In this document: one piece after another, positions 6,323 through 41,460 of the stretch
How the letters are laid out: every line of letters begins with the position of its first letter
Numbering within the stretch: position 1 is the stretch's first letter
Assembly (NCBI GenBank): GCA_028820845.1
Contig: JAPPII010000062.1
Coordinates: forward strand, 1 to 49,613
Source of the DNA: Candidatus Poribacteria bacterium
Lineage (GTDB): Bacteria; Poribacteria; WGA-4E; WGA-3G
Length of the DNA stretch: 49,613 nt
Reading direction: 5' to 3'
Program-made: the position numbers and the translations under genes
The notes under the pieces: model-generated
Seen by the model: only the letters and a program-made list of their open reading frames with translations
What the model was told of the DNA's origin: nothing
The model's database searches: none

Positions 6323-7873
6323 ATGAAATACTTCACCTACTTCGGAAACCACCTTATCAACGCGAAACTGCCCGATAATTCGGAGGTCTACTACGCGAAG
6401 CCACCACTGCCGGGCATTAAGCGCGACGCACTCAGTGAACACACGCAGCACGCCTTTGAAAACCCGCTTGAGATGTCACCGCTCCGTGAACTCGTCAACG
6501 GCAACTCAAAGGTCCTCATCCTGTTCGACGACAACTGTCAACCTTTTCCGCTTACCAAAAAACCGGATATGCGGCAGATTATGATTGAGACGCTTCTGAA
6601 GATGCTGGACGGGTACGGCGTGGAGAAAAAGAATATCCAACTGATGTGTGCCGTTGCGCTGCACCGAAAGATGAAAGAACACGAACTCGCCTATATGCTC
6701 GGCAAAAACATTATGGACGCGTTCTATCCGCATCAACTCCGAAACTTCGATGCCGAAGACCCTGAACAGATCGTCTACGTCGGGAAAACGGAAAAAGATG
6801 AAACAGTCGAGACGGATAAGGCAGTGCTTGAAGCCGATCTGGTGATTTATGTCGATATGATACAGATTCCGCTCAACGGTGGACATAAGTCTGTAGCGGT
6901 GGGTCTCGGCACGTATAACTCTATCGCGCCGCACCACTCGCCACACATGACATCAGAAAGTCCGCATGTGATGCAACCCGAAGGCTCACACATGCATGCC
7001 TGTATCGAACGGATGAGCCGCCTCATTCAGAAAGAGACACCGATCTTGGTCCTCGAAGCCGCAATGAACGGTGCAATCTATCCGTTTCATCTACGCTACG
7101 TTGGGAAACCGAACGGGGATTGCAACATCGCAGAGAAGGTTTTGAAAACCTTTACACCCGCAACCTTATCACTCCTGCCTGAATCGCTTCGCTACGGAAT
7201 TCTCAAGAGCGTCCGGACAGACTATGAACCGATACAGATTAACGCGGGCGACATCGATGCAGTCCACGAGAGAACGTTGACATCCATGAAGGAACAATTA
7301 ACAGTAGACATTCCGCGCCAGTTCAGCACATTGGTGTTCGGATTGCCCGATATGAGTCCCTACGCCGTTGATGCACGTATCAATCCTGTGTTGGTGGTCA
7401 GTGACATCTTGGGATACGTCTTCAACTGGTTCTATAATAAACCTATCATCAAAAAGAATGGGGTTGTTATCATCATGAATCCAACGTATGAAATCTTTCA
7501 TGAAGCGTATCACGTTGCCTATAAGATGTTCTACGATGAGGTGCTCGCTGAGACAACAGAACCGTTTGAGATGCAACAGAAGTTTCAGGAGAAATACGCG
7601 AAGGATCCGTATTTAATCGACTGCTATCGGAACAAGTTTGCGCACCACGGTTTCCACCCGTTCACAGTTTGGTATTGGGCGACGTATCCGCTGAAATATC
7701 TCGCGAAGGTCATTCTTGTGGGTCCAAAAGAGCCGCGGGTGGCGCAACGGTTAGGTGTTGATTGGGCGAAAAACTTAGACGATGCGCTCGCAATGGCACG
7801 CGAAATCTCTGGGGAAGATGACGTGGTTGCCTTGACGATGCCACCGTTTTTCTATGCGAATGTTGGAGGATAG
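6323..7873 (+). CDS. LarA-like nickel-pincer racemase/epimerase family protein
   Basis: A 516-residue protein of the LarA (DUF2088) family. LarA racemises lactate with a nickel-pincer nucleotide covalently bound to a lysine; relatives act on other 2-hydroxyacids. Residues matching the family are HRKMKEHEL at 114-122 (the HRxM/T..E motif, with the hydride-accepting His) and GGHKSVAVG at 186-194, where K189 matches the cofactor-binding lysine. At 516 residues it is longer than the roughly 425 of lactate LarA and carries extra sequence in the C-terminal half (a YWATYPLKYLAKVILVG segment), so the substrate is probably not lactate. No larB, larC or larE is present in the window. The next gene, a MetE-like enzyme, starts 17 bases downstream, suggesting an operon. 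The start at 6323 has its best ribosome-site-like AGGAG about 30 bases away. Confidence 0.85.
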   Translation: MKYFTYFGNHLINAKLPDNSEVYYAKPPLPGIKRDALSEHTQHAFENPLEMSPLRELVNGNSKVLILFDDNCQPFPLTKKPDMRQIMIETLLKMLDGYGVEKKNIQLMCAVALHRKMKEHELAYMLGKNIMDAFYPHQLRNFDAEDPEQIVYVGKTEKDETVETDKAVLEADLVIYVDMIQIPLNGGHKSVAVGLGTYNSIAPHHSPHMTSESPHVMQPEGSHMHACIERMSRLIQKETPILVLEAAMNGAIYPFHLRYVGKPNGDCNIAEKVLKTFTPATLSLLPESLRYGILKSVRTDYEPIQINAGDIDAVHERTLTSMKEQLTVDIPRQFSTLVFGLPDMSPYAVDARINPVLVVSDILGYVFNWFYNKPIIKKNGVVIIMNPTYEIFHEAYHVAYKMFYDEVLAETTEPFEMQQKFQEKYAKDPYLIDCYRNKFAHHGFHPFTVWYWATYPLKYLAKVILVGPKEPRVAQRLGVDWAKNLDDALAMAREISGEDDVVALTMPPFFYANVGG

Positions 7874-7890
7874 GACAACAAGAGGAATTT

Positions 7891-8925
7891 ATGATAGAAT
7901 CGGACATTTTGATACCAACCAGTACTATTGGGAGTTATGCACCGCCGAGTTGGTTGTGTGTGACATTAGAAGCCATCGGACGCGGAGAACTTGGCGAAAC
8001 CGACATCAACGAAACGCTTGACGACGCAGTTCGCACCGCCATTGCGGATCAAGAACGCGCCGGTGTTGACATCATCACAGAGGGTGAGATGCGTAGGCAG
8101 GACTTTGTGCTCGGTTTCTATGAACGGTTTACGGGATTAGAGGAACTCCCTGCGCCGAGAACACAGGGACCCGACGGACACGACCAACGTGGCAAATGGT
8201 TGCCGTCTGTCCCGCTTGTCGCACCTGATGGCCTCGGTATTCTCGCTGAATTTGAATTCGCGAAAAACGAGACAACAAAACCGCTCAAGGTGACGTGTCC
8301 CGGTCCATTCACGCTCTCTGGACGAATCCAGACCGGAGGCATCTACAAAGAACGGCTCGAAGTCGCCTACGCCTGTGCTGAGATTATTAACACAGAACTC
8401 CGGCAGCTCGTCGCAGCAGGCGCAGAATTCATCCAACTCGATGAACCTTCCTATGCTGTTTACCCCGACCGTCCACAGGAGTTCGTGAAGTTGTTCAATC
8501 ACACCCTCGAAGACGTTTCGGCAAAGATTGGACTGCATATCTGTTTCGGCAACTACCGCGGGAGAGCCGTCGGCAAGCGTTCGTATCGTCCACTTTTTCC
8601 ACACATCCTTGAAGCGAATTTCGACCAACTTGCCCTCGAATTTGCGAATCGCGAGATGGCAGAAATCGCATTGTGGAGTGAATTCCCGAACGACAAAGAA
8701 CTTGCCGTAGGGTTAATCGACGTTAAAAACTACTATGTGGAAACACCAGAGGATGTCGCCGAACTCCTGCGCGAATCACTCAAGCACGTACGTCCTGAAA
8801 AACTTGCTATTACCCCAGATTGCGGTTTCAGCCAAACGGCGCGATGGGCGGCGGCAGCCAAACTGAAAGCGATGGTTGCTGGTACTGAGATTGTTCGTCG
8901 CGAATTAACAAGAACAACATCCTAA
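7891..8925 (+). CDS. Cobalamin-independent methionine synthase C-terminal-like (MetE-like) protein
   Basis: A 344-residue TIM-barrel protein matching the C-terminal catalytic half of MetE; it lacks the N-terminal half. It shows QLDEPS at 182-187, HICFG at 216-220 (H216, C218), E250, and PDCGFSQTARW around 309-319 (C311), the set that binds the catalytic zinc in MetE. Such short MetE-like proteins transfer a methyl group from folate or another donor to a thiol; whether this makes methionine is not clear from sequence. ATG 7891 follows AAGAGGAATTT and lies 17 bases after the LarA-like gene, so the two are probably co-transcribed. Confidence 0.88.
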   Translation: MIESDILIPTSTIGSYAPPSWLCVTLEAIGRGELGETDINETLDDAVRTAIADQERAGVDIITEGEMRRQDFVLGFYERFTGLEELPAPRTQGPDGHDQRGKWLPSVPLVAPDGLGILAEFEFAKNETTKPLKVTCPGPFTLSGRIQTGGIYKERLEVAYACAEIINTELRQLVAAGAEFIQLDEPSYAVYPDRPQEFVKLFNHTLEDVSAKIGLHICFGNYRGRAVGKRSYRPLFPHILEANFDQLALEFANREMAEIALWSEFPNDKELAVGLIDVKNYYVETPEDVAELLRESLKHVRPEKLAITPDCGFSQTARWAAAAKLKAMVAGTEIVRRELTRTTS

Positions 8926-10696: not shown

Positions 10697-11431
10697 ATGC
10701 ACACTCAGCCGCATGAACCGATAGATATCCGAGAAACCGGTGCGCCGATTGAGGGAGAACCGCAGTTTGGTGATCAACGCCTATATTTTCAACTCCATGT
10801 CTTTTCAAAATGCTTAGACGCACAGTCCGTCAGTCAAATACTTGAACATCAAGTGCGTGAAAAAGACAGTCTAAACGCCGTTTTATATGACGATTTGAAT
10901 CATCCAATAGGTGTCGGTGTGCTTCTTATTGCAGAAGATCCGGGAGTGCTAAAAACGGAGTCGCGCCTTCTACTGGTGAACGTACAAAATTACCTGCTTT
11001 CGTATCGTCCAGAAATGACGATGCTCGGTCGCACCTATTCAAGCGGTAGAGAGCCGAATTTAGAGGAGTGGCTTATCAACAAACCGCTCCGAAACGTCTT
11101 GAATCCCAATTTCCCGTGGGCGATTTGGTATCCATTGCGTCGAAAACCAGAATTCTATCAACTTGAACGCCGTGAACAAGGCAGAATCTTAGGGGAACAC
11201 GCTATGCTCGGCCGCAGCTACGCTGCGGGTGGGCATGCCAGTGACATTCGGCTCGCCTGTTTCGGATTAGATACCAACGACAATGAATTCGTTATCGGGT
11301 TAGTCGGTCCCGAATTATACCCGTTATCACGGCTCATACAGGATATGCGCCGAACAGAACAGACGACCAAATACATTGAATCGCTCGGTCCCTTTTTCGT
11401 TGGAAAAGTTCGGAAGCAATTTAGCAGATAG
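10697..11431 (+). CDS. Chlorite dismutase / HemQ-superfamily protein
   Basis: A 244-residue protein whose C-terminal two thirds match the chlorite dismutase superfamily: WYPLRRKPEFYQL (144-156), the helix RREQGRILGEHAMLGRSYA (158-176), CFGLDTNDNEFVIGL (188-202) and a final RLIQDMRRTEQTTKYIESLGPFFVGK. This superfamily contains heme-binding chlorite dismutases, HemQ coproheme decarboxylases and non-heme relatives. His168 and His180 are the only histidines near the expected heme-ligand region; I cannot say with confidence that either is the proximal ligand, so heme binding is not established. No heme-synthesis neighbours are present. The stop codon lies inside the first units of a heptanucleotide repeat that continues to the next gene. 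Confidence 0.75.
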   Translation: MHTQPHEPIDIRETGAPIEGEPQFGDQRLYFQLHVFSKCLDAQSVSQILEHQVREKDSLNAVLYDDLNHPIGVGVLLIAEDPGVLKTESRLLLVNVQNYLLSYRPEMTMLGRTYSSGREPNLEEWLINKPLRNVLNPNFPWAIWYPLRRKPEFYQLERREQGRILGEHAMLGRSYAAGGHASDIRLACFGLDTNDNEFVIGLVGPELYPLSRLIQDMRRTEQTTKYIESLGPFFVGKVRKQFSR

Positions 11432-11470
11432 CAAACCGCGAATAGCGAACCGCGAATAGCCAATAGCAAC
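11424..11470. repeat. Heptanucleotide-periodic element H1
   Basis: Degenerate 7-base units such as AACCGCG, AATAGCG, AACCGCG, AATAGCC, AATAGCA run from the stop codon of the preceding gene (TAG 11429-11431) to the ATG of the ABC permease at 11472. Spacing is exactly 7 for at least six units. It fills the place where the ribosome site of the permease gene should be. Confidence 0.8.
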
Positions 11471-12200: not shown

Positions 12201-13799
12201 ATGGAAACTAACAAACGCATTGCAGCCCCACTTTTTGGAGTGCTTACCCTAATTTTTACTTTTGTTGGGATCGCCAACTGGATTTTCCAAGCGCGACTCG
12301 CCTCTTGGATTTGCCTGCTCCTCGCACTCGTCTCGTTCATTATCTTTGTTCGCTTGAGATTTTCGGCGGTCATGGACTTCTTCGTCAGTCGTCAAGCCCG
12401 TTATGGTGCCAACGTTGCGTTGAGCATTCTCGGCGTTATCGGTATCGCAGTCTTCGTAAATGCTATTGTTGTACAGCGTTTTGATAAAAGGGTAGATATT
12501 ACGCTTAACCAACTGTATACCTTATCAGAACAGACGCGGAAGATTCTCAAAACCGTTGACAAAGACATCCGTGTCACGGCATTTTTGGGACAAAACGTTC
12601 CTGCCCAAAACCAGCAACGTGCCAGAGATATGTTAGAATTGTATACATACGAAACCCAATTCGTGACCGTCTCCTACGCCGATCCGTACATCGACCAACT
12701 CCTTCGCAATAAGTACGATATTCGAGTAGACGGAACAATAGTTTTTGAAAGCGACACGCGGTACGAAAAGGTAACAACGATTGAAGAGCAGAAATTCACG
12801 AGTGCGATCCTCAAACTCATCAAGGACGAAACGAAAAAAATCTACTTTCTTGTCGGTCATGAAGAACATGAAATAGAGGATTTTAACACCGAAGGATACA
12901 GTAGCGTGCGCGCCGAACTGGAGAATCAGAATTACGCTGCATTCTCGCTCTCGCTTTTGACGGAACCAGACATTCCAGCGGATTGTGAAGTGCTTGTCAT
13001 CGCGGGTCCAAAAACCGCCTTAAGTCGTCATGAACTCGATATAGTAACGAAATACTTAGCACGGAACGGAAAATTGCTCCTCATGTTAGACCCATCACTT
13101 ACTTCTGCAGAAGACGCAAATAGGGGACTCGTTCGTCTCATGAAAAGATGGGGGATCACGATAGGAAACGATTTTGTCATCGATGAAACAGACTTTGTTC
13201 CGCTATTTGGACCGAGTGCCCCTGTGCCGGGATTTGAATTACACGAGATTACACGTGCCATGCGGGATTTTGTAGCGTTTCCGATAACGCGTTCGGTTAC
13301 ACCGGCTGCTGATAGTCCGGCAAACCTCAGCGTTAAATCCCTCGCGAAGACCGTGGGTGGTACACAAGACAGTTGGGGTGAAACCGAGCGCACTCCTGAC
13401 GGCACTTTCAGCACTGAATTCAATTACACTGCAGGTGTGGATACCGCGCCCCCGGTATCTGTCGCTGTTGCGATTGAACAGAAGATTGACAGCAACAATC
13501 AAGATGAAGCTACAGGTGCTTCCACCCGGATTGTCGTTTTCGGGGATTCAGATTTCGCAGTGAATGCCGCCCTCCGAGAGGCAAATCGCGACCTCTTTTT
13601 AGCGACAATCAATTGGCTCACATTAGAGGAGGACCTCATTGCGATTCGTCCCCTCGATTTACAAAAGCAGGCTTTGCGTCAGATGCGTGTCCAAGATGTC
13701 CAACTCGTACAAATAATCTCTGTTTTTCTGATACCTGCAATCGTCTTTATTGCTGGGTTAGTTGTCTGGTGGCAACGTCGTAAAGGAGAAGACGTGTGA
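12201..13799 (+). CDS. GldG-family ABC transporter auxiliary protein
   Basis: A 532-residue protein with three membrane helices in the first 95 residues, a large periplasmic region (about 100-500) of the ABC-transporter auxiliary (GldG) type, and a C-terminal helix ending VVWWQRRKGEDV. Recognisable parts include LYTLSEQTRKILKTVDKDIRVTAFLG (about 94-120), YFLVGHEEHEIEDFN near 215 and GKLLLMLDPSLT near 295. GldG-like proteins work with GldF-like permeases in gliding/secretion complexes or export of unknown substrates. ATG 12201 has TGGAGATAAGAC before it, 3 bases after the permease stop. The DUF4340 gene overlaps its stop by GTGA. These three genes form one operon. Confidence 0.82.
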   Translation: METNKRIAAPLFGVLTLIFTFVGIANWIFQARLASWICLLLALVSFIIFVRLRFSAVMDFFVSRQARYGANVALSILGVIGIAVFVNAIVVQRFDKRVDITLNQLYTLSEQTRKILKTVDKDIRVTAFLGQNVPAQNQQRARDMLELYTYETQFVTVSYADPYIDQLLRNKYDIRVDGTIVFESDTRYEKVTTIEEQKFTSAILKLIKDETKKIYFLVGHEEHEIEDFNTEGYSSVRAELENQNYAAFSLSLLTEPDIPADCEVLVIAGPKTALSRHELDIVTKYLARNGKLLLMLDPSLTSAEDANRGLVRLMKRWGITIGNDFVIDETDFVPLFGPSAPVPGFELHEITRAMRDFVAFPITRSVTPAADSPANLSVKSLAKTVGGTQDSWGETERTPDGTFSTEFNYTAGVDTAPPVSVAVAIEQKIDSNNQDEATGASTRIVVFGDSDFAVNAALREANRDLFLATINWLTLEEDLIAIRPLDLQKQALRQMRVQDVQLVQIISVFLIPAIVFIAGLVVWWQRRKGEDV

Positions 13800-15694
13800 A
13801 TTTTCGGACGACCTTGGTCATTATCATTCTGCTCGTAGGCACTGCTGGCGCGTATTTTCTATTCTTTCAGGAACCGACGGATAACGGGTCAACAGACGAA
13901 AAACCCCCAATTCATGAGGTCTACGGTATAGCCCGTGACAGCTTACAACAAATAGAACTTTTGTTCGCAGACGCAGCATATCAAAATTTGAAGTTGGTCA
14001 GAGAGGTAAATAGAAATTGGGAACTACAGACTCCGTTTCTGGCAAATGCTGACAACGAAAAAGTGAAGCAAATGTTAGACGATATTCTCAACAAACGCGT
14101 CAAACACACGCTTGAAGTACCAGAGTTGACACAGTATGGACTCGATACACCGAACATCACGCTTTCACTTTGGACGGATGGCACTCATCCGGCAGCGACC
14201 TTCTTCATCGGCAGTAAAGCGATTAACTACTCAGTTTACATCAAGGAGAAATCAGAAACGCACATATTTTTAATTGAATCCAGTGCGCTTGATGATCTGA
14301 CGAAATCACCGACCGATCTTCGAGACCGGTCAGTTGTTAGATTCAACCCGGAAACAGTGTCTAATATTACGTTTAAATCTGAAGATGCCGATTCATCTTC
14401 GCAATCAAGAACCGTGAATTGTGAAAAGCAAGGTGGCACGTGGCACCTTACATCCCCAATTGAGGTGAAGGCGGATGTTCAAGAAATTGAACGGATTCTT
14501 TCGGAGTTGCTTCTATTGCAAGTGGTGACCTTTGAGGTAGATAACACAGATACAATCTCCTCATCCGAATTAACAACATACGGATTAGGGGCACCGCGTA
14601 TCCAAGTGAAACTCACAGATACAGATCGGGCCTATGCCCTTGACGTCGGTTCGACACTCCCGACAGAAACCGGGAGTCCCAGACACGTCTATGTTAAGTT
14701 AGCCGTCAGCCGTCAGCCGTCAGCCATCAGTAAAGAAGCTCTTGATGTCTTGGAGGCTAATAGCCAATATACTGAAGGTCCTCACTCAATCTCCATTGTC
14801 CCTGATGACATCTATCACCTTCTCAACAAATCCGTTTTTGACTTACGCGATAAGCGGGTTATCGACTTTGAAAGGACTGCTACAAACCGTTTCGTTATTT
14901 CCATAAACGGGGAACAAGACACTGTCTGCACAAAAGGTTATGATAATATATGGGAATTGCAAACACCGACAGGAAAAATAAAGGCAGATGCAAAGGCAGT
15001 GGATGACCTACTTTTTGGCGTAGACTCGCTCGAAGCCGTTGCCTTTGTTGAATCATCCGCTAAAAATCTACAGACGTATGGGTTAGCAGCACCGTCAATC
15101 AAGGTTGCATTTACACAGCGCGGTGAAGAAAAGCCAACTATTTTGCTGATTGGAGACACCGCGGAAGATAGAACTGTCTACGTCAAAGCGGAGCATTCAT
15201 CGCAAATCGTCCGTGTTAAACGGGCACTCATTGATAAGATTGCACTCGGTACAGCGTGGTTACGAGATAAGCAAATCCTCAATTTCCACATTGACGATGT
15301 AATCCGACTTACGCTGCGTAGCGAGGACACAGAACCTCTCACATGTCAACGTCTCGGAACGAGTTGGCGACTTACAGCACCCGTGAAAGAGGCAGCGAAT
15401 AATATAACGGTAAACGCCATCATCTACGAACTCGACACTCTAATGGCAGACGCTTATGTTGGGAGCAATCCTGTCCTTACGGATGACATCACAGGTTTCA
15501 GCAATCCGCACGTGCAGCTAACTGTTGAGTTAGGGAATCAAAAAGTCTATACCTTGCAAATCGGCAACCCAGACACTTCCGGGCATTATTACGCACGACT
15601 TCAACATGAACCCGGTTTAATCTTTCTCCTTAATGCGGATCTCGTTCCAAAATTGAAAACGACGCTTGCACTGCTCCGGACCTCGGAACAGTAG
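13796..15694 (+). CDS. DUF4340 multi-repeat protein carrying a repeat-derived insertion
   Basis: A 632-residue protein with one N-terminal membrane helix (residues 5-24) and four DUF4340-type units of about 130-160 residues (about 42-190, 190-360, 360-488, 488-628). Each unit has a W.L..P pattern, a helix with L, then YGL..P and a VY(I/V)K strand followed by LRD. It starts at GTG 13796, overlapping the GldG stop as GTGA, after AAAGGAGAAGAC. The second unit has about 26 extra residues (302-327) between VYVK and the next strand compared with units 1 and 3; their DNA (14699-14776) is a heptanucleotide-periodic element like those between genes. The protein probably sits on the periplasmic face of the Gld-type transporter. 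Confidence 0.82.
   Translation: MNFRTTLVIIILLVGTAGAYFLFFQEPTDNGSTDEKPPIHEVYGIARDSLQQIELLFADAAYQNLKLVREVNRNWELQTPFLANADNEKVKQMLDDILNKRVKHTLEVPELTQYGLDTPNITLSLWTDGTHPAATFFIGSKAINYSVYIKEKSETHIFLIESSALDDLTKSPTDLRDRSVVRFNPETVSNITFKSEDADSSSQSRTVNCEKQGGTWHLTSPIEVKADVQEIERILSELLLLQVVTFEVDNTDTISSSELTTYGLGAPRIQVKLTDTDRAYALDVGSTLPTETGSPRHVYVKLAVSRQPSAISKEALDVLEANSQYTEGPHSISIVPDDIYHLLNKSVFDLRDKRVIDFERTATNRFVISINGEQDTVCTKGYDNIWELQTPTGKIKADAKAVDDLLFGVDSLEAVAFVESSAKNLQTYGLAAPSIKVAFTQRGEEKPTILLIGDTAEDRTVYVKAEHSSQIVRVKRALIDKIALGTAWLRDKQILNFHIDDVIRLTLRSEDTEPLTCQRLGTSWRLTAPVKEAANNITVNAIIYELDTLMADAYVGSNPVLTDDITGFSNPHVQLTVELGNQKVYTLQIGNPDTSGHYYARLQHEPGLIFLLNADLVPKLKTTLALLRTSEQ
14699..14776. repeat. Heptanucleotide-periodic element H2, in frame inside a gene
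   Basis: Starts as GCCGTCA repeated three times then GCCATCA, followed by CAGTAAAGAAGCTCTTGATG (14728-14747), close to the core CAGTTAAGAGGTTTTCTGATG at 41377-41397, then further 7-base units. At 78 nt (26 codons) it keeps the frame of the DUF4340 gene. Confidence 0.75.
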
Positions 15695-17031: not shown

Positions 17032-17448
17032 ATGGGTGTAGAAAAGGTTGTTAAATCAGAAAAAGAATGGAAAGAACAACTCTCACAGGAAGAGTATCAG
17101 GTAACCCGGAAGAAAGGGACAGAACGCGCCTTCACGGGGCAATACCACGATTGCAAAGAGCAAGGGACCTATCACTGTATCTGCTGCGGCAGTCCACTTT
17201 TTAGCTCGGAGACCAAATACGATTCAGGGACAGGGTGGCCGAGTTTTTGGGAATCTATTACGCCCGAATCTGTTGAGACCAAACCGGATCGTAGCATATT
17301 TTTTATGCCACGCACGGAAGTCGTCTGTAGTCGGTGCGACGCACATCTCGGACACGTCTTTAATGACGGACCTAATCCGACAGGTAAGCGTTATTGTTTG
17401 AACTCTGCGGCACTTACATTGGTCAAAGAAGAACCAGATAGCGAATAG
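17032..17448 (+). CDS. msrB: Peptide-methionine (R)-S-oxide reductase MsrB
   Basis: A 138-residue stand-alone MsrB that reduces methionine-R-sulfoxide in proteins. It has the zinc pairs C49/C52 and C99/C102, the SGTGWPSFW motif (65-73), [14 protein letters not shown] (101-114) and the catalytic Cys122 in RYCLNSAAL. Length and motif order are standard, so the enzyme should be active. No MsrA domain is fused. ATG follows GTAAGGGGTAAAAA. A weak -35/-10 pair (TTGTTT 16963, TAGTAT 16988, spacing 19) may be its promoter. The last residues (PDSE) and stop codon are read from the first units of heptanucleotide element H4. Confidence 0.95.
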
Positions 17449-17550
17449 CAATTGGCAGTTGGCAATTAGCGATTGGCAGTTGGCGAATAGCCATAAACCA
17501 TAGACCAGCAGCCATAGACCTGACTGCTATTTGCTAACAGCAAACTGCGA
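17437..17550. repeat. Heptanucleotide-periodic element H4 (longest)
   Basis: About 16 consecutive 7-base units, including GCGAATA, GCAATTG, GCAGTTG, GCAATTA, GCGATTG, GCAGTTG, GCGAATA, then CATAAAC, CATAGAC, CAGCAGC, CATAGAC, CTGACTG, CTATTTG, CTAACAG, CAAACTG. The phase never slips. It starts at the msrB stop codon and ends 10 bases before the ribosome site of the radical SAM gene. Confidence 0.9.
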
Positions 17551-18788: not shown

Positions 18789-18850
18789 TGGTTGTTAGTT
18801 GTTAGTTGTTGGTTGTTGGTTGTCAGTTAAAAGAGTTTCTGTAACAATTT
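18789..18850. repeat. Heptanucleotide-periodic element H5 with core
   Basis: Units TTGTTAG, TTGTTAG, TTGTTGG, TTGTTGG, TTGTCAG start right after the radical SAM stop codon and lead into CAGTTAAAAGAGTTTCTGTAACAATT (18824-18849). A closely related core is at 30942-30969 and at 41377-41397. Confidence 0.85.
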
Positions 18851-28559: not shown

Positions 28560-30056
28560 TTAGAACCATTGAGCGAGAAGTTTGGAGATTTTGACGTACA
28601 ACCCCCAGCCACTAATTCCAGCAAACACAATAAGCACCCCTGCCGAAATAAGCGCACCGACGAACATAAACGGCTTCGTCCGATACGCGCGCGGCAGTTT
28701 AGCGTTCAAATATAACGCAGCAAGCATCATCACAGCAATTGAAAAATTTGCCAAAATAAATCCAGCAATCTGTGTCAAAATGTCAAATGGGATGTTCAAC
28801 CAGATGAGTACCATCGTCGTAACAAAGATGTAGAGACAGACCCATTTGCGAAGCGTCCCGTAGTTCCATTGGTGTTGGGGCCAGATCGCCTGAAAGAACT
28901 CCTGCATCACGCGGGCATAAATCTCTGGGAGTGCCTGCAGTGTTCCCCACAATGCGACGATGATACAAATATAATACACCCAGACGAGTGAGCCGTGAAT
29001 ATTTTGCCAGACGCTCGCCTGATCGGTCAGCAAACTCCACCCTTCAAAGGTGCTTTGCATGCCATACAGGACAGCCGCACCTGAAATCATGAAAGCACCC
29101 GTCACAATGAAGAGGACGATTGCACCCATGCCGATATCCCAACGGAGCGGTGCCAGGATTTTACGGAGTTGGCTTACTTGTTCGGGTTGCTCAGGGAGGT
29201 AATCGATTCTATCACGTTCACCGGCGAGTCGGCGCACATCCACAATGTTCTGATGGGAGGTCATACCCCAGCGGTGGATGCCGACCCAATTGGCGTAGAC
29301 GATGTACCCCATCACAGATCCGCCGACATAACCGAATGCCGTCGCCATTGTCAATAACGGGTTCTCAACTGCATCCTGCGGTGCCCATTCAGGAAATTCA
29401 GGCAGATGTCCAAAACGGAGGCTCCCGACAACGGCTTTACCTAAGTCTGGACGCACCATCAAGGTGCCGATGATAGTCCCGACAACGAGGATAGCACAGA
29501 TGATGAGTTGCTGCTTTTCGAGCCTTTCAAAGGAGATACGCAAACCGAAAAGGAGGGCAAGGGTGATGAAACAGGACGTGATAAGGTTTTCCCAAACAGG
29601 TTGCGAGATCCCGGAAGGCAGGGCGTCCCTAAATAAATGATGGAGCAACGCGCCGCACGGTTTTCCAATTGGCACCCACGCCAAAGGCGCGCCTATCATT
29701 TCAAAGAGAACAATCCCGATAAGAAGCCATCCGCGCGGTCCAGGCAGCTTGACGAGCCGGTGTCCGATATATTCGCCGCTGACTGCGGTATAACGCCCAA
29801 GGAGATACGTGACAAAAATGCCTTTGACAGCGCAACTGAGAAGCACAAGCCAGAGCAAGTTATATCCTGCCCACGCCCCTGCTCGAACGACAACAATCGT
29901 TTCACCTGCGCCAATACTCACAGAAGCGACAATCGCCGCGGGTCCAAATACGGCAGCGAGCGCAATTATTTTCTTCAGAGACCACGGTTCAGCATGAGGA
30001 CCCGTAACGGGTGGAATATCCACAGTCTCAGTACTTCGGTTTTCTTCTGTCTGCAT
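28560..30056 (-). CDS. Nramp-related membrane transporter lacking the usual metal motif
   Basis: A 498-residue membrane protein with about 11-12 helices and overall Nramp (NRAMP/MntH-type) sequence patterns: GPAAIVASVSIGAGET in the first helix, and AFGYVGGSVMGYIVYANWVGIH in helix 6. Nramp proteins import Mn2+ or Fe2+ using the DPGN motif in helix 1 and MPH in helix 6. Both motifs are replaced here (SIGAGET in helix 1; no Met-Pro-His in helix 6). The protein may carry a different ion or substrate, or act as a regulator. An added 20-residue polar N-terminus precedes helix 1. Start ATG 30056 has a weak ribosome site. It is downstream of the ThuA gene with a hairpin between. Confidence 0.75.
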   Translation of the reverse strand: MQTEENRSTETVDIPPVTGPHAEPWSLKKIIALAAVFGPAAIVASVSIGAGETIVVVRAGAWAGYNLLWLVLLSCAVKGIFVTYLLGRYTAVSGEYIGHRLVKLPGPRGWLLIGIVLFEMIGAPLAWVPIGKPCGALLHHLFRDALPSGISQPVWENLITSCFITLALLFGLRISFERLEKQQLIICAILVVGTIIGTLMVRPDLGKAVVGSLRFGHLPEFPEWAPQDAVENPLLTMATAFGYVGGSVMGYIVYANWVGIHRWGMTSHQNIVDVRRLAGERDRIDYLPEQPEQVSQLRKILAPLRWDIGMGAIVLFIVTGAFMISGAAVLYGMQSTFEGWSLLTDQASVWQNIHGSLVWVYYICIIVALWGTLQALPEIYARVMQEFFQAIWPQHQWNYGTLRKWVCLYIFVTTMVLIWLNIPFDILTQIAGFILANFSIAVMMLAALYLNAKLPRAYRTKPFMFVGALISAGVLIVFAGISGWGLYVKISKLLAQWF

Positions 30057-33423: not shown

Positions 33424-33765
33424 CTGATATGTCCTTTTACAAATGGATTAAATTATAGTATGCCGCGAACATGGTGTTCTTCGCGTGCTTTGGCATATTC
33501 GGTCTACAAACCGCATTCTAAAGCATGCGGTAATTGTTTACATCCGCCCCTATTATTAAACAGATTTTCGCCAATTTTGTCAAGCAAAGTTTTTGGCAGT
33601 CAGCGGTCCGCAAGCGTGACAATTATCAGCATTTGTTGTTTGAATCCGGTTTTGAGGATAGTGAACTAACCTATCAGGACAGTGGACTTCGGTTCGCTGC
33701 CTTGTTTTTTTACCTCACTGTTCGCGGTTCGCGAATCGCGGTTCGCTATATCAAAACTCCACAAT
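33424..33765. other. Intergenic region rich in small palindromes
   Basis: No gene is supported. It holds two palindromes (CGCGAA...TTCGCG near 33466-33486 and CCGCAT...ATGCGG 33511-33530) and heptanucleotide element H6. An open stretch of 80 codons (33534-33776) runs through H6 and is judged spurious. Confidence 0.5.
33718..33752. repeat. Heptanucleotide-periodic element H6
   Basis: Units CTGTTCG, CGGTTCG, CGAATCG, CGGTTCG, CTATATC in exact 7-base spacing, shortly before the promoter at 33766. Confidence 0.7.
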
Positions 33766-41335: not shown

Positions 41336-41460
41336 GCAGTCAGCATATTGGCTATCGGCAATCAGCCATCGGCTTCCAGTTAAGAGGTTTTCTGATGAAG
41401 TTACGACTTCTTGCTGAAGGCTGACTGCTGAAGGCTGAGGGCTATTCCTTTGACGACTTC
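41336..41460. repeat. Heptanucleotide-periodic element H7 with core
   Basis: Units such as TATTGGC, TATCGGC, AATCAGC, CATCGGC, then CAGTTAAGAGGTTTTCTGAT (41377-41396), then GAAGGCT, GACTGCT, GAAGGCT, GAGGGCT, all in 7-base phase. It lies between the divergent CRTAC1-like and Gfo/Idh/MocA genes and occupies the room where promoters would be expected. Confidence 0.88.

Follow-up and report, generated by a model that had tools for sequence, protein, structure and literature searches.

A palindromic repeat with heptanucleotide arms and its probable in-frame insertion in a DUF4340 gene of Candidatus Poribacteria

A DUF4340 gene from a metagenome-assembled genome of Candidatus Poribacteria, a lineage of sponge-symbiont bacteria, very probably carries a MITE-like palindromic repeat that has multiplied in one genus of this phylum and that was inserted in the second DUF4340 loop in an ancestor of four of the genomes compared. 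Comparison with orthologues shows the extra segment to be an in-frame insertion of a dispersed repeat. The interpretation given in a preliminary description of this DNA is supported, with two amendments: the net gain is 72 nucleotides, and the copy, whose right side is degraded, forms no hairpin.

The host gene and its filled and empty orthologues

The window, which is the entire 49,613-nucleotide stretch that was analysed, includes a single open frame at 13796-15694 that matches the Pfam family DUF4340 with an E-value of 1.1e-54. The features of this gene, and of an intergenic copy of the element located elsewhere in the window, are as follows.

13796..15694, + strand: DUF4340 gene that received the insertion; 632 amino acids, GTG start, tandem DUF4340 domains preceded by a membrane helix at the N terminus
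14699..14770, + strand: in-frame insertion LAVSRQPSAISKEALDVLEANSQY, net +72 nt (24 codons), with ends placed to within a few codons
14701..14731, + strand: left arm, the heptad array AGC-CGTCAGC-CGTCAGC-CGTCAGC-CATCAGT, which has three heptads fewer in L013/L053
14728..14747, + strand: core of the element, CAGTAAAGAAGCTCTTGATG; compare CAGTAAAGAGG and CAGTTAAGAGG of intergenic copies
14755..14766, + strand: short right-arm remnant GGCTAATAGCCA, which matches the right terminus of intergenic copies
41348..41444, + strand: palindromic copy from the same family, located between genes, with left heptads, core CAGTTAAGAGGTTTTCTGATGAAGTTACGACTTC and right heptads

Three GCCGTCA units followed by GCCATCA, reported earlier as lying in frame within the gene, are read at 14702-14729, and Tandem Repeats Finder (TRF) places a period-7 array with 95% matches at 14701-14730. 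The additional 7-base units AGGCTAA, TAGCCAA and TATACTG are likewise present at 14754-14774, on the 3′ side of the core CAGTAAAGAAGCTCTTGATG. The preliminary description gave the insert a length of 26 residues (78 nt); the length is indeed a multiple of three, but the net excess relative to orthologues is 24 residues. Its match between the core and positions 41377-41397 is fair rather than close, with about 14 of 20 bases agreeing by eye. The segment matches nine other places in its own genome (E-values from 1.7e-6 to 8.7e-4), and thus the repeat is not a product of chance. The right side of this copy is degraded and no hairpin fold is predicted (z = 0.0). In L010, the right-arm remnant reads CGCTGATAGCCA and its TGA is out of frame. 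Predicted tryptic peptides from the insert include QPSAISK and EALDVLEANSQYTEGPHSISIVPDDIYHLLNK.

Orthologues came from public genome contigs and 85 genomes of the phylum, giving 60 sequences in total, some of which are duplicates. The insertion LAVSRQPSAISKEALDVLEANSQY is absent from every aligned orthologue outside a group of four genomes, which comprises G000 (the source of the window), G056 (the same species), and G073 and G068 (sister species). In the aligned set, the genes without the insert pass from VYVK through a turn of about five residues to the next strand, and the one exception among these empty sites is L066, whose loop is longer and unrelated. Insert-free relatives, which the preliminary description had proposed to look for, therefore exist, and none of the distant orthologues encodes the 26 residues with non-repeat DNA, the outcome it had named as contrary to its reading.

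In a tree computed without the two DUF4340 insert regions, the four filled genes form one clade with a support of 1.0, which is nested among empty genes and has an empty gene as its sister. This nesting indicates that the insert was gained rather than lost elsewhere, and we rejected deletion in all other lineages on the same grounds. In the window gene and in G073 the insert accounts for a net 24 residues (the G073 protein, of 633 residues, has its one extra residue elsewhere), whereas G068 has a net excess of 17 residues, corresponding to exactly three heptamers (21 nt) fewer. The empty sites are only about 70% identical, and thus the ends of the insertion are unreadable at the level of single bases.

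A second site in the same protein, near residue 205, is filled in G083, G061 and G060, and a degraded relative is found in G054. The peptide at this site in G083 and G061 is NQRSAVSGQR...TDSRLLKADGY. The carriers form no exclusive clade (support 0.65), so that one gain followed by losses is indistinguishable from several gains.

Structure and distribution of the element

Intergenic copies span about 80-130 bp and are hairpin-like, with TCAGC heptads, the core CAGTAAAGAGG, a loop and an inverted arm. The left half begins with TAGC or TGGC, continues with heptads of the form NNTC(A/G)GC, and ends in the core CAGTAAAGAGG or CAGTTAAGAGG. The right half consists of a loop of about 20-45 bases, CCTCTTTACTG or a similar sequence, heptads of the form GC(T/C)GANN, and a terminal GCTA or GCCA. 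The resulting TAGC/TGGC...GCTA/GCCA heptad arms are terminal inverted repeats, as in MITEs. Single-strand folding of the window copy at 41348 and of an in-gene copy at L104 (z-scores of -2.41 and -2.48) predicts a ladder of 5-bp stems with 2-nt internal loops between them, and a copy in a YegS gene has no hairpin fold (z = +1.2). An alignment of 16 copies revealed an arm number too variable for a useful covariance model, and the window contains no Rfam match above the gathering score.

The pattern TCRGCNNTCRGCNNTCRGC has 112 matches in the G000 genome, compared with eight for a reversed-pattern control. Across the phylum, there are 7-435 matches per genome in this genus and at most nine elsewhere. 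Within the genus the number of pattern matches varies about 60-fold, from 435 in G083, 255 in G061 and 252 in G071 to seven in G051.

For a survey of other copies, we used 1.61 Mb (28%) of the G000 genome, in which genes were called with a simple codon-usage script. There are 60 tight arrays with a period of 7 in this sample versus 0-2 for periods of 8, 10, 11 and 13, and thus heptanucleotide tandem repeats stand far above those of other lengths. Nine pairs of convergent arrays are separated by 30-57 bp, and only three pairs of convergent arms are 200-5000 bp apart.

The window also carries heptad arrays built from other units (GCGAATA, TTGGCAG/TTGGCAA, GTTGTTA and GTTCGCG, at 11428-11467, 17439-17548, 18789-18828 and 33715-33746), which probably represent sister families. 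The array at 17439-17548 has inverted arms too. Additional short palindromes, such as GGGTTGCTACGCAACCC and GCGTTTCGCTACGCTCCACTC, are nested in the heptad arms of several intergenic copies, close to the centres of L003, L008, L028, L035 and L048.

Copies in genes, reading frame and effect on proteins

The survey sample includes 64 family arrays, ten of which lie wholly inside coding sequences, in eight genes including DUF4340. The ability to enter coding DNA that the preliminary description claimed for the element thus extends to several other genes. Of the 60 arrays that could be cleanly classified, 50 are intergenic and 10 are coding; coding sequence makes up 82% of the sample, which suggests that most coding insertions have been removed or avoided. 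By Pfam, the hosts are DUF4340, BatA/VWA, POTRA/Omp85-type, O-antigen ligase (Wzy_C), YegS/DAGK lipid kinase and UPF0182 genes. Another host codes for a SprA-like protein of 2247 amino acids, with a weak SprA_N match below the cut-off, and the eighth (C13:58499-60382) has no class assigned. Unrelated host proteins have peptides such as GQPSAVSRQQ, DQRSAVSGQQ, SQQSAVSSQQ and NRQQSAVSDQQ in common. In five other genes that were compared, the orthologues from sister genomes lack the insert or have one of different length, although some loops differ in length even among genomes without the element. A further coding copy with two arms is located near the N terminus of a 356-amino-acid protein in a 400-kb sample of G083.

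In G077, the first loop of BatA contains a separate two-armed copy with a different heptad flavour, and the copy in G000 is compound. The latter insert (L004:706-830; G000:C47 ~29225-29349) is a TCAGC element split by five GCGAACC heptads. This compound arrangement, with the peptide RTANREPRTANRE, indicates that heptad families of different kinds can be nested.

Because seven leaves a remainder of one when divided by three, a heptad array encodes the same 7-residue repeat (SAVSxQx) whichever frame is read, a logic that had already been set out for TAACTGA repeats (PMC4679880). The TCAGCNN units are read as SAVSGQR, SAVSRQP or SAVSSQQ, and all three frames are free of stop codons. The reverse orientation has a stop codon in every 21 nt, except with units like TCGGCTT, which give KPKAESR in reverse. 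All eight left arms in coding sequences are in the sense orientation. Two antisense arrays occur in coding sequences; both are right arms of GCCGAAA type, which lack stops when read on the coding strand, and they encode ESRKPKANE and ESRKLKAES. The core itself is read in at least two frames.

The lengths of in-gene arrays differ by exactly 21 nt in all four comparisons (DUF4340 in G068 and G073, BatA in G000 and G073, BatA in G080 and G070, and the SprA-like gene in G068 and G073). Changes in 21-nt steps only are what slippage combined with selection for frame predicts, and translation of the insert is therefore probable.

AlphaFold2, applied to ten DUF4340 orthologues (mean pLDDT of 79), places the insert between the strands at 297-306 and 330-336, with residues 308-327 having a pLDDT below 50. 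Residues 198-202, in the second loop that is invaded in other species, also have a pLDDT below 50. The prediction thus depicts the insert as a floppy loop of low confidence. Outside the insert, the gene is under purifying selection (dN/dS of 0.19 versus L052 and 0.15 versus L053); the corresponding values within the insert are 0.44 and 0.35, from few sites. Such an extra loop probably has a neutral or mildly deleterious effect.

Most of the hosts (DUF4340, BatA, POTRA/Omp85, SprA-like, O-antigen ligase and UPF0182) are envelope or membrane proteins, and the same loop has been hit independently across species (BatA site 1 in G000 and G077, and the second DUF4340 loop). Both observations fit a model in which coding copies are kept as useful, changeable loops that provide slow surface variation in a sponge symbiont. 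However, we consider this quite unlikely, given that the insert is less constrained than its flanks, that right arms decay, that YegS is a lipid kinase rather than a surface protein, and that the number of genes is small.

Mobility and relation to known repeats

A 111-bp intergenic block at C47:32476 lies between the stop codon of an Omp85-type gene and the next start codon in the G000 genome. It is absent from G073 and G068, where these two codons abut, with an ambiguity of an A or two. The first BatA insertion, in its G000 form, is also absent from both sister genomes. These differences indicate that the family has moved or changed since the species split.

In an alternative model, slippage within a loose loop generated the heptamers on the spot, as a simple tandem repeat that has never transposed. 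Heptad number does vary in slippage-like steps, and heptanucleotide repeats are common in bacteria (PMC4679880). However, the array comes together with the core CAGTAAAG and a right-arm terminus, both of which match copies dispersed between genes; other coding copies are two-armed and whole (C13:152485-152582 and L104), and the C47:32476 copy is either there in full or missing altogether. An origin wholly in place is very unlikely, and we continue to favor the insertion of a MITE-like element.

Direct repeats flanking 13 regex-defined elements, a small sample, are not above chance, so that the target-site duplication characteristic of MITEs is not seen in this set. The flanks are A/T rich, and the clean empty site at C47:32476 reveals no clear target duplication. 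No autonomous partner for the heptad hairpins was evident in the 1.61-Mb sample, in which the three arm pairs 200-5000 bp apart would be the candidates.

The genome has four Y1 transposase hits, two of which are RAYT-like genes. One of these (L082:1290-2030; G000:C30 ~7740-8480) has GTAG-tagged palindromes GTAGGTGCGGTTTGTAACCGCACC on both sides in a REP-RAYT arrangement. The GTAGGTGCGGTTTGTAACCGCACC repeat is also found within the UPF0182 gene near C61:162773, where it adjoins a heptad array and the frame is open. The second RAYT-like gene (L083:1040-2030; G000:C92 ~101,500-102,500) adjoins tandem GTAG-tagged CGTGCGATGAATCGCACTACTACAAACC repeats.

The co-occurrence of Y1 hits and REP-like palindromes in one genome might suggest that the element is a REP-type palindrome mobilised by the organism's own RAYT transposases. 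However, the repeats flanking the two RAYT-like genes are of other kinds, and none of the four Y1 hits, as read, has heptad arrays beside it. The GTAG/CGTC tag with an adjoining Y1 gene, which is typical of REP/RAYT systems, is not found for the heptad element. An origin from these four Y1 hits was rejected on the basis of their flanks, and the model as a whole is highly improbable.

We propose that an intact copy of the MITE-like element would form a hairpin, in which a stem of heptads, each with five paired nucleotides (TCAGC/GCTGA) and two unpaired, surrounds CAGTAAAGAGG...CCTCTTTACTG. The element would move in trans through the action of some enzyme, probably as a DNA hairpin. A copy that lands in a gene would be translated, and most such insertions would be lost. 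The survivors are expected to be those whose added length is divisible by three, whose array is read in the direction free of stops, whose right arm brings in no stop in frame, and which sit in a flexible loop. Once in place, the array would slip, and selection for frame would retain only changes by multiples of three heptads. A model in which the insert is transcribed but then skipped in translation or removed, leaving the protein unchanged, has a parallel in the translational bypassing of palindromes in yeast mitochondria (cited in PMC6649704), but it is barely credible given that skipping would make frame irrelevant, whereas coding copies are all open and arrays change by 21 nt only.

By analogy, the element appears to work like the protein-coding palindromes of Rickettsia (RPE; Ogata 2000, 2002) and Wolbachia (Ogata 2005), combined with heptad arms as in Nostoc P6b and TAACTGA repeats. 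Reviews (PMC10969869 and PMC2229807) describe the former as palindromes of about 100-150 bp that are intergenic or fused in frame in conserved genes. Similarly, the Poribacteria repeat is short and palindromic, lies both between and inside genes, and is inserted in frame in conserved genes (DUF4340 and others) whose orthologues lack it. For RPE, the review lists the mobilising enzyme as unclear and marks target-site duplication with '?', and likewise we found no enzyme and detected no duplication. The likeness is one of layout as described, and Poribacteria is an unrelated phylum. The Poribacteria element differs in that its stem is made up of 7-nt units and contains 2-nt internal loops, that its arrays change in 21-nt steps, and that at least two core frames are in use.

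The TAACTGA heptamer repeats of Beggiatoaceae, Cyanobacteria and Bacteroidetes (MacGregor 2015, PMC4679880) are 7-nt direct repeats that are mostly intergenic and sometimes inside ORFs; one orientation has stops in all frames and the other gives an open 7-residue repeat. Some Poribacteria right arms are TAACTGA-like (TAACTGATAACCGATAACTGA at C47:32476). However, they are described as direct repeats with a single inverted case and have no core with paired arms; the in-ORF cases are mainly at protein ends, and the sections consulted give no pairs of filled and empty orthologues. The P6b region of the Nostoc trnL intron (TDNGATT / NNTGAGT; PMC4476775) shares a stem with 7-nt motifs on both sides and a length that varies by unit, but it resides within a group I intron RNA, uses other heptamers and does not code for protein. 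Intragenic MITEs (ERIC/RU and the 107-bp Correia element; Delihas 2007) are also small inverted-repeat elements with in-frame fusions, but the review table lists them with terminal inverted repeats and target-site duplications, and they lack heptad arms. Our literature search, whose coverage is incomplete, found no paper linking Poribacteria with heptanucleotide repeats.

More speculatively, and in our view with only a modest chance of being correct, the element might still be active throughout the genus, and its 7-nt ladder might ease the invasion of genes. The open arm, being stop-free in every frame, giving an identical 7-residue repeat in all three and able to grow or shrink by seven residues, would then repeatedly remodel envelope-protein loops in a sponge symbiont.

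Protein-coding palindromes were described as peculiar to Rickettsia and then to Wolbachia, and the Poribacteria element would be an independent case in a distant phylum. It offers a reason why 7-base repeats can persist in genes, which is that, in the right orientation, the peptide is independent of frame. With many pairs of filled and empty orthologues, movement of the element, tolerance of the proteins and function of the loops become testable, and the spread in copy number of up to about 60-fold within the genus would permit a co-occurrence search for the mobilising enzyme.
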